Shown piece by piece: positions 1,474-36,783 of a DNA stretch of 64,000 bases. Position 1 is the stretch's first letter. Every line of letters begins with the position of its first letter. Origin of the DNA: Alkalitalea saponilacus (GTDB taxonomy: Bacteria; Bacteroidota; Bacteroidia; Bacteroidales; Marinilabiliaceae); assembly GCF_900168165.1 (NCBI RefSeq), contig NZ_FUYV01000016.1, positions 1 to 64,000 of the forward strand, in the 5' to 3' direction. The position numbers and the translations under genes are program-made. Under the pieces are notes generated by a model, which saw only the letters and a program-made list of their open reading frames with translations, was not told the origin of the DNA and searched no databases.

Positions 1474-2604
1474 TTAGGTTGTAACTATGAATCGTGATAC
1501 TTGTGGTGTTCCGTTTCTAAGTGAAGCTTTTTGAATGTTTTGCTTATAATATTCCAGTTTCATGGGGTCTCTTAATAAACTTCTGGTTTTTAATGGAAGT
1601 TTTTTAATGTCCCGTTCATAAATCCCCAGATTATTATCCCTTACAAACTCCATATTTCCTTTTTCCTGCTCCCATATGTAATTGTTGATTACCGGAATTT
1701 TCCCGCTTAATAGTATCTCCATAAAAGTGCTGGCACCGCATTTGGTAACCACTATCTCTGCAATGCTTATTAATTCATGCACAAAATCGATAAACGCATA
1801 CAGTTTCAAATTATGAAGCTGATGTTTCTCTTTCATCTTTTCTGCTTTATTATATAACTCTTTATTATTACCACATACAATGGCGACATAATCATCAGGG
1901 TTGTCCTGAAGGAAAGATTTCAGAATCCTTTTCCCTTTTGGAATTCCATCTCCACCACCAAGTATGAGTATTATTTTCCTTTGAGGATCAAACCCCAGTT
2001 CTTGTTTTATTTTATTGGTTTTTTCCGGCGACAGGGGTTGGGTGAATTTTTCGTCGAGAATAAATGGGAAATGTGCTACCCGGCTTTTTTCGATTCCGAT
2101 ATTAAGGCAATGCTCTTTTATTCTTTGGGAGAAAACAATAAACTTTGGCGATTTATCAAGAAACCAGATTGGATGGGCAGTAAAAGGATCAGTAACAACT
2201 ACCATAACGGGTATTTTAAGGTTGTTGCTTCTGATGATTTCTAAAATTGGTTTAATAAGGAAAAAATGGAAAATGACTATTTTACTAGGGTTTTCCTTTA
2301 ATATCTTTGCTTCAAGGTTTTTTTTGATAAAATGGGAGACAATTACTGTAGTCAATAAAGCCACAGGCTTTATTTTATTAATGGCGTAGAGTAATTCAAA
2401 TGTCCAAACTGCAACGGATTGGGATATTCTGTAGCCATCCTCAACAAAGAATTTAATTAATTTCCCTGAATTGGTAAACCCATCGAATAAATCAATATGA
2501 ATGTTATTCTGGTATTTCGCGCTGATGTATTTCGCGACGGATTTGGCCGGAGCTAAATGTCCTCCACCAGTTTTTAAATAGAGGAAAAGATAGTTTTGTT
2601 GCAT
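1474..2604 (-). CDS. MGDG synthase-like glycosyltransferase (GT28 family)
   Basis: A 376-residue GT-B glycosyltransferase. The N-terminal acceptor domain opens with TGGGHLAPA (residues 12-20), the glycine-histidine motif of monogalactosyldiacylglycerol synthase and UgtP-type enzymes. The C-terminal donor half has GGGDGIPKG (216-224) and KCGASTFMEIL (288-298), matching the nucleotide-sugar site of GT28. Family members transfer a hexose from a UDP sugar to diacylglycerol at the inner membrane face; the exact sugar and lipid here are unknown. It lies between a distant glycosyltransferase-like gene and a phosphoesterase on the same strand, so a short glycolipid operon is likely. Confidence 0.82.
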   Translation of the reverse strand: MQQNYLFLYLKTGGGHLAPAKSVAKYISAKYQNNIHIDLFDGFTNSGKLIKFFVEDGYRISQSVAVWTFELLYAINKIKPVALLTTVIVSHFIKKNLEAKILKENPSKIVIFHFFLIKPILEIIRSNNLKIPVMVVVTDPFTAHPIWFLDKSPKFIVFSQRIKEHCLNIGIEKSRVAHFPFILDEKFTQPLSPEKTNKIKQELGFDPQRKIILILGGGDGIPKGKRILKSFLQDNPDDYVAIVCGNNKELYNKAEKMKEKHQLHNLKLYAFIDFVHELISIAEIVVTKCGASTFMEILLSGKIPVINNYIWEQEKGNMEFVRDNNLGIYERDIKKLPLKTRSLLRDPMKLEYYKQNIQKASLRNGTPQVSRFIVTT

Positions 2605-2717
2605 GGATTTGTTTAATTATCATTGGTTTTAATTCCCTTCCGTAGCAAAACTATCTTTCATTTATTACCTATTGATTAAGCAAATGTTATGATATAAAAA
2701 ACTTTAAGGTGAGTTTG

Positions 2718-4034
2718 TTATCGAAGTGTATCATCCGATTCAGGCATGTGCCCGTTTTGGATATAGTATTCTATATTAAAAGTGCCTTTTTTTCTTGCCT
2801 TGAGAAATCCTGCCCAGGCAGCTTCTGCCAGTCGCCCTTTATGCAGCAAGTCGGTTAGCCATTGATCGGTATATGCCGGGTTTTCCTGTTTAAAACCCGC
2901 CTGTATTTCTTGAAGCCATTTTTTATTAAACCTCTCCTGCGATCCGATGGTCGGTGTCATAATTATAGGAATCCCAAGAGCACAATAGAATGACAATTCA
3001 CTTGGTTTGCTCCATAAAACATCTGTTGTTTGCAAAGCTTCGTTCATTTTGTCAAAGTATTCATATATGTTCTTGCTGCAAATAACCTCTATGTTTTCTG
3101 ACTGAATGCTCTCTTTAACTTTATTGAAATAGTTGGCAACTTCAGGACGAGTGCCGGCCACCAGATTTAGCTTTATTTCTCCCTTTATTAGTTTTTCCTT
3201 TAGACTAAAGGCTATCTGTTTCCCTATTTTTGCCTGAGCACCAGCTCCACCCACAGCGTATGTAATGGTTAGGACTCTGGAGTTTTCAAATTCGCAATTT
3301 TCTTTTCCGAGGAAGTGTTTTACGCTCTTCTTATATAAAGACCAGAATCGTTTATTGGGATCCAAATAATGAAGCCTTTGACCCAGATTTTTCTTCAGAA
3401 CTGATAGGTTTTCATCACCCATCAGTTCTTTTGGAAGAGGAAATCCCGTTATATGTATATGATTCTCCGGGACCCCGTATGCTTTTAGTCTTCCGGCCGC
3501 GCGTCCGCATGGGGCAAAATAATTGATGTTGCTTTCCCATGGATCTTTTCTAACCCAAACTCTGTTCAGGTCGGTATCACATATTATGCAGTAAGTACGT
3601 GAATATCCTGCTAAATCTGCGGCTATGGCAGGAGCATAAAAACTGGTGGTCAGAGGCAAACCGGACAGGGTAACTTTTTCTATAATACTTCTGCAAAGAC
3701 CATTCTTTATGCTTGATTCAAGTATTCTCACCTGAAATGAGCTTTTCGAAAGATTACGGTATGGGTAGTATGATGGGATCATCAGGGAATAATCCAATAT
3801 TTTAAAAATCTGATTCCCAACTAAGGGAATTTCCCGTGCTCTGGAGAGTAATTCATATATTTTAAGAGTCCTTTTCCACAGTTTTCGTTCCGATGCCGGG
3901 GTGTTTTTATTGTTACCGACAGATACAATGTTTCCTTGCCCAATATTCCTCAGCGGATAAATTGCCCGCTGATGACCGTAACCCATGTCAGCTGTTACAA
4001 GCCATGTTGTTTTATTTGAACTGTTTTGCATCAT
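2718..4034 (-). CDS. Putative GT-B glycosyltransferase-like protein
   Basis: A protein of 438 residues from the ATG at 4034 (the frame is open further upstream only to a TTG). It opens with WLVTADMGYGHQRA (residues 11-24), which parallels the GxGH acceptor-binding motif of the neighbouring MGDG-synthase-like enzyme. A glycine-rich AVGGAGAQ stretch and SKPSELSFYCALGIPI in the C-terminal third parallel the GGG and KPG.S..E donor-site motifs of GT28. I infer a second GT-B transferase, perhaps modifying the product of its neighbour. I do not recognise a named family, and catalysis is unproven. The 113-base gap to the next gene is longer than inside a tight operon. Confidence 0.6.
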   Translation of the reverse strand: MMQNSSNKTTWLVTADMGYGHQRAIYPLRNIGQGNIVSVGNNKNTPASERKLWKRTLKIYELLSRAREIPLVGNQIFKILDYSLMIPSYYPYRNLSKSSFQVRILESSIKNGLCRSIIEKVTLSGLPLTTSFYAPAIAADLAGYSRTYCIICDTDLNRVWVRKDPWESNINYFAPCGRAAGRLKAYGVPENHIHITGFPLPKELMGDENLSVLKKNLGQRLHYLDPNKRFWSLYKKSVKHFLGKENCEFENSRVLTITYAVGGAGAQAKIGKQIAFSLKEKLIKGEIKLNLVAGTRPEVANYFNKVKESIQSENIEVICSKNIYEYFDKMNEALQTTDVLWSKPSELSFYCALGIPIIMTPTIGSQERFNKKWLQEIQAGFKQENPAYTDQWLTDLLHKGRLAEAAWAGFLKARKKGTFNIEYYIQNGHMPESDDTLR

Positions 4035-34814: not shown

Positions 34815-34938
34815 TTCGTTATTTTGTTTTAGGAGTGATGCATTAAACCACTTATAACAGGCATTAAGCAATCCCAATAACATCAGTACTTTGAGAGGCC
34901 ATGCAGACAACAATTCCATAACAGTTGTCTGTTTTTTT
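34815..34938 (+). ncRNA. Candidate small RNA or regulatory leader
   Basis: Inferred from the orphan terminator. TTATTTTG at 34821-34828 is one base short of the TAnnTTTG -7 element and could start a transcript of about 100 bases ending at 34938. GCATTAA occurs twice inside it, and TGATG/CATCA can pair. I match it to no known RNA family; the 5' end is a guess. Confidence 0.25.
34904..34938 (+). terminator. Orphan intrinsic terminator
   Basis: CAGACAAC (34904-34911) pairs with GTTGTCTG (34924-34931), followed by seven T. It reads on the plus strand, but no plus-strand gene ends upstream: the neighbour (34723) is transcribed away on the minus strand. It may end a small RNA or act as an attenuator in the leader of the lipoprotein gene at 35005. 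Confidence 0.8.
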
Positions 34939-35004
34939 GTTTTGACCAATAAAAAATTATGTATTAACTTGACCATATTAAGTTTAACCTTTCAAATCTC
35001 TATT

Positions 35005-35472
35005 ATGTCAAAACTGTCTTACTCCTATTTTCTGCCAAAACACTTCTTTGTTCTCATTTTTGCATTTTTGCTCATAACCTCATCATGTCGCATTCAGTTG
35101 ATAGCTGATTATGATGCAAATGTAGCTGAACAGATAGGTAGAACGGCTATGAAGGTCGAAAGATTTTATCTGACAATGCTCGAAACTACAACTGTTGAAA
35201 ACAATGGTCGTGCATACGACCATTTTACTGAAGGCTATATTGATGTAGAGGTTGAGTTGATATCGTTACTAAACCGAAACCGGGTTCGACCACTGAACGA
35301 GAATTCGGTAAGAATTTGTGAAATCACTCTTGAATTGTGGCAAAAATATAAAATGGAGCACAAGGAGGACAACTCTATCAGTGATGGGGTTATAGGGTTG
35401 AACAGACTAACTTTCAGTGATCTTTTCTTTGCCATGCAAGTGGCAGAAAGAGCTAAAGAACTAATCGATTAA
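35005..35472 (+). CDS. Small putative lipoprotein of unknown function
   Basis: A 155-residue protein with a hydrophobic N-terminus ending in LLITSSC; the cysteine at about residue 27 is the probable lipidated residue, although the -3 position (T) is not classic. The mature part of about 130 residues looks mostly helical, charged, and has no other cysteine pairs of note. I recognise no family. The ATG at 35005 is chosen over an earlier in-frame ATG because the lipoprotein signal starts there. It is 12 bases before the next unknown gene, with which it surely forms an operon. Confidence 0.75.
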   Translation: MSKLSYSYFLPKHFFVLIFAFLLITSSCRIQLIADYDANVAEQIGRTAMKVERFYLTMLETTTVENNGRAYDHFTEGYIDVEVELISLLNRNRVRPLNENSVRICEITLELWQKYKMEHKEDNSISDGVIGLNRLTFSDLFFAMQVAERAKELID

Positions 35473-35484
35473 AACTTCTAAACT

Positions 35485-35802
35485 ATGAGTGAATTTAATA
35501 TTGACACAACATTAAGAGAAATGGCAGACGCCATAGGGGACACCATTTCAAAAGACAAAGAGAAAATAAAGGAAATTATAGTAAAAATTCTAAACCGAAG
35601 AAGAGAGCGAATGAAGATGTTGGTTGAGTTGCGAATTACCGGAGACCTAACGCAACAACGATTCGAATCAAGATTAGAGGATGAGAAAAAAGTACTTGAA
35701 GCGGAATTCAATGCCATTGCAGCATTGAATAAAGCAATGGTGCAAAAAGCGGTCAATGCAGCTTTGGATGTATTGACTAAAACAGTCCGAGCCTTACTGT
35801 AA
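35485..35802 (+). CDS. Helical charged protein of unknown function
   Basis: A 105-residue cytosolic protein with no signal peptide or membrane segment. It is almost entirely predicted helix and highly charged, with heptad-like runs (KEKIKEIIVKILNRRRERMK, then FESRLEDEKKVLEAEFNAIAALNKA), so a coiled coil or helical bundle is likely. I recognise no family. It sits between a lipoprotein and a secreted protein of unknown function and is probably co-transcribed with the first. Confidence 0.7.
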   Translation: MSEFNIDTTLREMADAIGDTISKDKEKIKEIIVKILNRRRERMKMLVELRITGDLTQQRFESRLEDEKKVLEAEFNAIAALNKAMVQKAVNAALDVLTKTVRALL

Positions 35803-35940
35803 TCCGAGATTTCAATTCAAAATGGCTCCATCCTGTAAATACACATTTTTTTTGTCATGATTATTGAAACCAAACATGCAGCATTCATGTATTAATGTAA
35901 AGTGACTGATTTAATCAATAATCATCTATAATTCCTATTT

Positions 35941-36783
35941 ATGAAGAAATATGTTGTTGCATTATTAATTATTGCCATACCAATTGTAACGTTCTCACAA
36001 CAGCACGTTCCCGAAGTGGAAGATTACGAGCGCTTTCTGAAGTCTAAAACCTTGGTGGTTTTAGATGACGCCTTAATGAGTTTTTACAATTCAAGAATTC
36101 AAGAGGTGGTTGAACGCTCATGGACTATCACTCCCTATGAATTTATCTCCTCACGTGAGTTTGAAGAGAAAAAACACGATCCCAATCTCTCTTTTCTGCT
36201 GACAACCATTGTCACTTTTGACCGTGACAAAACACGAGCAAGGTATAATTTTCTGAGTCTGCTTATGGGACAACCCAATGCTGATGTAAAAACCATGCCA
36301 GATTTGTGTTCACTGCCTTTATCATATCTGGATGTCGAAGAAGATAGCTATCTGTATAAGCTTGAGGCATTTGTTTTATTCATGCAGAGTCATGTTAGAA
36401 ACGCACTTGAGGACAGCAGATTTATTGGTGACCGAGGATTTCGACGATACAACAGAGAACGCGGAAGCCTGGAAGGCAAAAAACTTCTCTTAACCAAAGA
36501 AGATCTTGCACCAGATATCTCAACCCGCGCAGCCATTGCCCAAAACTATCCATACGATTTTGAGATTGTAACCCGCGATGAGATTGAAGCAGCCATCGCC
36601 CGTCAGGATCCTGATGTGGTTTTTTTACACAAAGTAGGTCCGGAGGGAACAAGAATTCGTGCAAGAGTATACAAACTTTTGGTTGGTGCTGCCGATTCAA
36701 AACTTTACTACTGGAATTATCAAATGATTAAACACAGAAGCGATGATGCATTTCAAAGACGGGATCTCAGGAGGCTTCGATAA
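35941..36783 (+). CDS. Secreted protein of unknown function
   Basis: A 280-residue protein with a Sec signal peptide (MKKYVVALLIIAIPIVTFSQ, cleaved about residue 19-20). The mature part has two ends of interest: an N-terminal stretch around KTLVVLDDALMSFYNSRIQEVVERSW and a C-terminal part (DEIEAAIARQDPDVVFLHKVGPE, KLLVGAADSKLYYWNYQMI) that suggests an alpha/beta fold. I recognise no family. A perfect 21-bp terminator follows. It is 138 bases after the helical-protein gene, same strand, and probably the third gene of this set. Confidence 0.75.
   Translation: MKKYVVALLIIAIPIVTFSQQHVPEVEDYERFLKSKTLVVLDDALMSFYNSRIQEVVERSWTITPYEFISSREFEEKKHDPNLSFLLTTIVTFDRDKTRARYNFLSLLMGQPNADVKTMPDLCSLPLSYLDVEEDSYLYKLEAFVLFMQSHVRNALEDSRFIGDRGFRRYNRERGSLEGKKLLLTKEDLAPDISTRAAIAQNYPYDFEIVTRDEIEAAIARQDPDVVFLHKVGPEGTRIRARVYKLLVGAADSKLYYWNYQMIKHRSDDAFQRRDLRRLR

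Follow-up and report, generated by a model that had tools for sequence, protein, structure and literature searches.

In phage lysis cassettes, the slot behind the endolysin gene often holds spanin genes. In the Type 10 secretion system (chiWXYZ of Serratia and the lysis cassette of Y. entomophaga), holin, endolysin, i-spanin and o-spanin serve lytic release, according to the consulted part of PMC10847048. The excerpts of PMC10598620 describe eCIS as being released through lysis of the producer, and name holins, lysins and spanins for R-tailocins. For flavobacterial phages, the sections consulted in PMC8776804 include an N-acetylmuramidase, an amidase and an L-Ala-D-Glu peptidase among the lysis genes; endolysins are named there for several phages and a (unimolecular) spanin, by name, for just two. 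Across the partial texts covered, outer-membrane breakage by phage-like elements of Bacteroidota is thinly described. Here we report two adjacent small genes, P1 and P2, a pair hitherto without a name that occurs in Bacteroidota and on a Vibrio replicon and has probably spread by horizontal transfer. They encode a lipoprotein and a helical hairpin and, lying behind endolysin-like genes, are a direct candidate for outer-membrane breakage in Bacteroidota. No description of the pair was found among open PMC papers at the level of titles and abstract starts, nor in the consulted portions of PMC10847048, PMC10598620, PMC8776804, PMC8894135 and PMC8213781.

The pair lies in a 64,000-nucleotide stretch of Alkalitalea saponilacus (contig NZ_FUYV01000016.1), hereafter the window (Table 1). 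An earlier note on this DNA had placed three plus-strand genes at 35005-36783, and all three open reading frames are present there; we refer to them and their products as P1, P2 and P3. Its statement that the products match no recognised family was borne out by profile searches: no match of P1, P2 or P3 attains the curated cut-off in Pfam or NCBIfam, and of the three only P2 has matches in PHROGs, the best at E 0.03. BrxL_N (E 0.049) and ATP synthase b (E 0.0052) were rejected as relatives of P2, their scores being far below the family cut-offs. P1 and P2 are separated by 12 nt, P2 and P3 by 138 nt. Between the window and Natronoflexus pectinivorans DSM 24179, a member of the same genus, dN/dS is 0.14 for P1, 0.05 for P2 and 0.04 for P3; given the first two values, we regard P1 and P2 as real genes. 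P3 is 98% identical between the two genomes.

Table 1. Features of the locus; positions are those of the window.
Feature	Position	Strand	Length and basis
P1, lipoprotein, first gene of conserved pair	35005..35472	+	155 aa; translation, family alignment, profile matches, dN/dS
P2, second gene of pair; long alpha-helical hairpin that lacks an N-terminal anchor	35485..35802	+	105 aa; translation, AlphaFold2, family alignment, dN/dS
P3, probably exported protein with two apparent units, from an unnamed family; resident neighbour outside the pair	35941..36783	+	280 aa; distribution, synteny, AlphaFold2
Strong intrinsic-terminator-like hairpin behind P3	36810..36853	+	inverted repeat, terminator scan, RNA folding
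Weak terminator-like hairpin and T run upstream of P1	34904..34938	+	read from sequence

The three genes had been taken as one set, and this grouping did not survive comparison with other genomes. Of 61 genomes, 45 carry P3, the window genome among them, and only two of these 45 carry P1 and P2 as well; these two, the window and its genus mate, are also the only genomes of the 61 in which P1 and P2 were matched. Seen from the other side, full-length P3 occurs in just two of 44 P1-bearing genomes, both of the window genus. The 42 P1-bearing genomes of other genera gave no P3 in 40 cases and a weak partial match in two (E 7e-7 across 105 positions and E 3.5e-5 across 65), with only 56 first-look candidates scored in many of the 44. 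On distribution and synteny, a three-gene operon with a single function was rejected. Co-occurrence in other genomes holds for P1 with P2 and breaks down for P3 with the pair; the proposal that the set works across the envelope remains plausible for the linked P1 and P2, and P3 drops out of it.

P3 is long established in its order, probably as an exported protein, and is a neighbour unrelated to P1-P2, which are the newcomers at the window locus. A divergent histidine-kinase gene directly adjoins P3 in 17 of the 34 P3 loci examined (our own count), and the gene often found downstream is one that we take to encode an ABC-F-type ATPase. P1 and P2 lie between the histidine-kinase gene and P3 in the window genus only (2 of 61 genomes). 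The gap between kinase and P3 accepts insertions, since two other genes separate them in Alkaliflexus (L052) and a different secreted-protein gene, cluster c18, lies directly upstream of P3 in five loci (L038, L041, L042, L066, L069). By eye, the Alkaliflexus genes (L052, 5469-9569) are amylase-like and AraC-type regulator genes. The five genomes concerned belong to other families; their c18 protein is conserved, about 220-250 aa long, and possibly the true partner of P3. One genome, that of L038, has two P3 copies in tandem.

The N-terminus of P3, MKKYVVALLIIAIPIVTFSQ, is by eye a plausible signal peptide, in line with the earlier description of a secreted product, and P3 is probably exported. 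An AlphaFold2 model built from 65 sequences (pLDDT 88.4, pTM 0.84) contains two successive units with the same order of elements. Compared with each other as profiles, the two halves give a weak match (probability 2.4%, E 0.019), while 20 column shuffles reach at most 1.0%. Structural matches of the model include PelC, LpoB, CsgG and TolB, all of them weak; the best is PelC, with Z 5.0 and rmsd 4.3 across 110 residues, and Foldseek returned zero matches at E 0.001 or better. From the model we infer that P3 may be a CsgG/TolB-N-like periplasmic protein, which would differ from the single PelC, LpoB, CsgG and TolB-N type domains in having two such units in tandem. Searching solved structures with the P3 sequence gave best E values of 0.7 and 0.2, to unrelated proteins, and an identification with GldN/PorN was unsupported by Pfam and NCBIfam. 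A His-Lys-Val-Gly-Pro motif is kept in at least 90% of 35 rows of the family alignment; the 65-row set was chosen by this motif.

The pair itself is found well beyond the window genus. On the 1.85-Mb replicon of Vibrio sp. THAF191d, a P1 homologue is directly followed by a P2 homologue (26% and 30% identity). Three genes before this P1, at 1663-3741 of the Vibrio locus (L152), lies a gene for a protein with a Cache/PDC-type sensor domain, the C-terminal part of which resembles, by eye, a ligand-gated channel. The P2 profile has matches in 12 of 395 Bacteroidota genomes. Six of the 11 matches outside the window were read, five from the same genus as L169 being left out: a lipoprotein gene lies ahead of P2 in four (L164, L165, L167, L168), and the other two are a short P2-like piece (L166) and a match inside another protein (L169). 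In one family, 35 of 397 genomes match the P1 profile, and in three further families 5 of 79, 14 of 92 and 26 of 195 match a larger P1 profile; the neighbourhood reading leaves out matches in G530, G734 and G761 of the first family, G408 of the family with 14 and G1018 of that with 26. Altogether 79 bacterial loci were read, window and genus mate included. P1 is present in 78 of them (L231, which has no P1 under the final model, was dropped), with P2 next on the same strand in 72 and a median gap of 12 nt (one outlier, 393 nt). When the 24 IMG/VR loci described below are added, P2 follows P1 in 96 of 102; it was not found behind P1 in L228, L260, L266, L271, L272 and L279.

The window type and the commoner type, to which most hydrolase-linked loci belong, match at 95.3% (P2) and 95.1% (P1) in hhalign profile comparison and, judged by their sequences, are one family. 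In the tree of P1 and P2 the window pair falls into a clade of eight loci together with three other Bacteroidota families and Vibrio (support 0.99), a mixture of families and phyla that suggests transfer between lineages. Only two loci of this clade have a hydrolase, patatin or eCIS neighbour, namely L165 (lysozyme-like, by eye) and L295 (patatin).

The signal peptide of P1 ends in a lipobox-like SSC at Cys28, which agrees with the earlier assignment as a probable lipoprotein. Over the 37 rows of the family alignment, the Cys28 column is conserved at 90% or more and Asn98 is invariant. A lipobox pattern is present in 73 of the 78 bacterial P1 proteins; of the remaining five, four have by eye a cysteine behind a hydrophobic stretch, and the open reading frame of the fifth (L275) looks mis-started. 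P1 is probably located in the outer membrane.

P2, already proposed to be helical, is modelled by AlphaFold2 from its single sequence as two long helices (residues 6-52 and 57-104; pLDDT 89.6, pTM 0.65), with no N-terminal membrane anchor. The turn at Gly-Asp-Leu-Thr is identical in the Vibrio protein and differs in some other members (alignment of 37 rows). Within residues 1-40, none of 96 P2 sequences contains a 15-residue window whose mean hydropathy is at least 1.5. The hydrophobic part is the C-terminal end, where the median is 1.60 against 0.23 in the N-terminal part, and where 55 of the 96 sequences reach 1.5 or more, as against none in the tested N-terminal and middle parts. The window P2 is mildly hydrophobic at its C-terminus, at 0.95 versus the median of 1.60. 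One TM-like stretch occurs in 6 of 72 bacterial and 4 of 24 IMG/VR P2 proteins. A fold search with P2 had no match at E 0.001, and the hairpin of ribosome recycling factor (rmsd 1.0 across 76-77 columns, E 1.9) was taken as a generic likeness.

Our strongest evidence on the surroundings of the pair comes from tail-type gene clusters in IMG/VR. A profile of the commoner P1 type matched 24 IMG/VR contigs, while IMG/VR scans with the window-type profile or with single proteins had no match; no member of the pair was found in the phages collection. All 24 loci have the same order: an endolysin-like gene (-1), P1, P2 and five conserved gene families (+2 to +6), the latter read by eye as tail-type, baseplate and fibre genes. 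In the six loci whose spacing was read, 1-4 nt separate the endolysin-like gene from P1, and a gap of 3-5 nt precedes P2. The -1 proteins (160-231 aa) form one family, and its endolysin identity was matched for L307, the other 23 being relatives by clustering alone; the L307 protein matches solved phage L-alanyl-D-glutamate peptidases (2vo9, 1.1e-26; LysB4, 9.4e-24) and ChiX (1.9e-4). At +7, an open reading frame of family v11 or v12 is present in 23 of the 24 loci, with TM segments in all but one 63-aa fragment, and is a holin candidate. The 24 loci are alike and may represent few independent events; L301, on the same contig as L309, was left out.

Like two-component spanins (Rz/Rz1), P1-P2 combine a small lipoprotein gene and a small helical-protein gene that lie close together and, in the 24 tail-type loci, behind an endolysin-like gene. 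Unlike these spanins, P2 has no N-terminal membrane anchor (0 of 96), the lipoprotein gene comes first, and neither protein falls into a recognised Pfam, NCBIfam or PHROGs family; the position next to an endolysin-like gene, common to 24 of 24 IMG/VR loci, is absent from the window locus. We do not call P1-P2 a spanin because P2 lacks the anchor of an i-spanin. With Type 10 secretion the link is ChiX, which is related to the endolysin-like partner of one tail-type locus; however, no spanin pair is recognised around P1-P2, the enzyme nearby varies from locus to locus and none adjoins the pair in the window. Where that system has holin, endolysin and spanins in one operon, the tail-type loci have an endolysin-like gene, a holin candidate only at +7 and no canonical i-spanin. 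Some P1-P2 pairs lie inside eCIS or putative R-tailocin clusters, whereas most bacterial loci read, and the window, have no tail genes.

In 17 of the 78 bacterial loci a peptidoglycan hydrolase is encoded at -1, +2 or +3. These are seven Amidase_3 proteins, three N-acetylmuramidases, two Amidase_2 proteins (counted among 78 neighbours, with only L261 traced), one GH25, one GH46, one protein with a PG-binding domain only and two recognised by eye; 14 of the 17 belong to a catalytic Pfam family, directly or through close similarity. All seven Amidase_3 genes are at -1, directly ahead of P1, and by eye their products start inside the catalytic domain. The 17 hydrolases have no evident signal peptide, since in a simple hydropathy test none attains 1.8 across 12 residues of its start region (highest 1.74, L217). 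A patatin is encoded in nine loci, three of them together with a hydrolase, and eCIS clusters host six. L203, L204 and L215 each have a patatin-like membrane protein followed by an Xre/MbcA-type antitoxin gene and by a gene that, by eye, is RES-type. At least one of hydrolase, patatin and eCIS is present in 26 of the 78; the 52 outside these lists, window included, are an upper bound, the neighbour families seen being the best 25 of 56, of 36 and of 91. When syntenic loci are merged, hydrolases occur in 12 of 50 contexts and hydrolases or patatins in 16 of 50, the merging being crude in that it groups the window with seven loci sharing cluster numbers.

Hydrolases are more frequent near the pair than distally (Fisher test, p 2.9e-7, all 17 counted), a value biased toward near genes because the queries of the positional test were enzymes found near P1. 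Among 148 distal proteins used as a control, no peptidoglycan-hydrolase family is in the best 25 of 150 families, a list in which LysM is found in two proteins and families with a single member do not appear. Membrane proteins are not enriched around the pair (45 of 221 near versus 38 of 227 far), and a general association of P1-P2 with them was discarded. A family of small membrane proteins, c6, occurs at varying positions around P1-P2 in eight loci (L274, L276-L279, L281, L282, L290), and a Bestrophin-like family in four. In the window the pair is an orphan, with no adjoining hydrolase gene: by eye, neither a hydrolase nor a holin gene is recognised among the open reading frames listed around it, nor any sheath, tube, baseplate or eCIS_core gene. 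A PF13699 search of the window genome gave no match, and 14 control genomes were equally empty. Elsewhere in the window genome there are two Amidase_3 matches, the open frames being 373 and 326 residues long.

How might such a pair work? We give a probability of roughly 0.5 to P1-P2 being a mobile two-gene lysis-accessory module that acts at the outer-envelope stage. In this mechanism a lysis cassette would produce a cytosolic peptidoglycan hydrolase (endolysin), which a holin or another lesion would allow to reach the wall; P1, probably in the outer membrane, and P2 would then jointly finish the breakage of the envelope. The P2 hairpin may contact the inner membrane through its hydrophobic C-terminal end, so that the job of a spanin would be done by proteins without the i-spanin anchor. 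In the window genus the pair may work with a hydrolase from another locus or serve the envelope in a different way. In favour of a lytic role we count the constant pairing, the place behind endolysin-like genes in the tail-type loci, the hydrolases and patatins of the chromosomal loci, and the single family formed by the window type and the commoner type. We also count N-acetylmuramidase, amidase and L-Ala-D-Glu peptidase, three of the classes found near P1-P2, which are lysis classes of flavobacterial phages in the consulted part of PMC8776804. Counting against it are the 52 of 78 loci outside the lists, the missing P2 anchor, the unenriched membrane neighbours and the lack of any member in the phages collection. 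More tentatively, and with some doubt on our part, P1-P2 may form a separate class of outer-envelope lysis proteins that replaces spanins in tail-type clusters of Bacteroidota, works with many unrelated endolysins and with phospholipases, and serves as stand-alone modules in free-living bacteria. The pair could also serve as a marker for release modules of the lysis type (tailocins, eCIS, stand-alone cassettes) in genomes where the family of the partner enzyme varies.

Alternatively, P1-P2 could be the core of a defence or programmed-death system. It would detect intruders or damage to the envelope and then set off an effector that destroys the envelope and can be exchanged for another: an amidase, muramidase, patatin, membrane protein or caspase. 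The diversity of effector-like neighbours would suit it (hydrolases in 17 of 78 loci, patatins in nine, and one caspase), as would Xre-type antitoxin genes beside the patatin in three loci and the type IIG restriction enzyme, SIR2 and HerA carried by L257. However, PADLOC, run on 78 neighbours of the later 40 loci, gave L257 as the one clear defence island among the best 25 of 68 matching families, the other matches among those listed being mad8-type (two proteins) and CARF-type (three), and the endolysin-P1-P2-tail order of 24 of 24 loci fits lysis of the producer better; we consider a defence core unlikely.

Contractile systems offer a different way to connect the pair with hydrolases: they could shoot hydrolases or phospholipases at other cells, with P2 as the adaptor for these effectors and P1 as an immunity lipoprotein. 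Six of 78 loci do lie in eCIS clusters, and the neighbours include patatins and hydrolases without evident signal peptides. Yet immunity proteins are usually effector-specific, while here a single conserved lipoprotein occurs with hydrolases from unrelated families, and the six eCIS loci are the only bacterial ones for which a delivery system was noted, which makes this decidedly improbable. We rate lowest an ordinary role in envelope maintenance in most hosts, with repeated recruitment beside hydrolases: most loci, the window included, have no recognised hydrolase nearby and the genes are under purifying selection in the window genus, but the patchy spread (2/61, 35/397, 5/79, 14/92 and 26/195 genomes) and the mixed clade suggest a dispensable, transferred function.

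The exceptional 21-bp terminator that the earlier note had seen behind the third gene is confirmed. Its inverted repeat (36810-36830/36833-36853) is perfect across 21 nt with a spacer of 2 nt, and the energy of its RNA fold is -32.4 kcal/mol (z -10.2), a stability equalled by none of 200 shuffles. The sau-5971 RNA matches at this site with 31.9 bits (E 0.0047), where the gathering score is 90, and we read this as a chance likeness between hairpins. At the equivalent place behind P3, N. pectinivorans also has a hairpin, by eye of a different sequence. Upstream of P1 the fold of 34890-34945 reaches -12.1 kcal/mol at a z of merely -1.5, and the terminator scan did not detect the weak hairpin and T run listed in Table 1. 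These lie on the P1 strand between the divergent kinase gene and P1, and could be the end of a short RNA.
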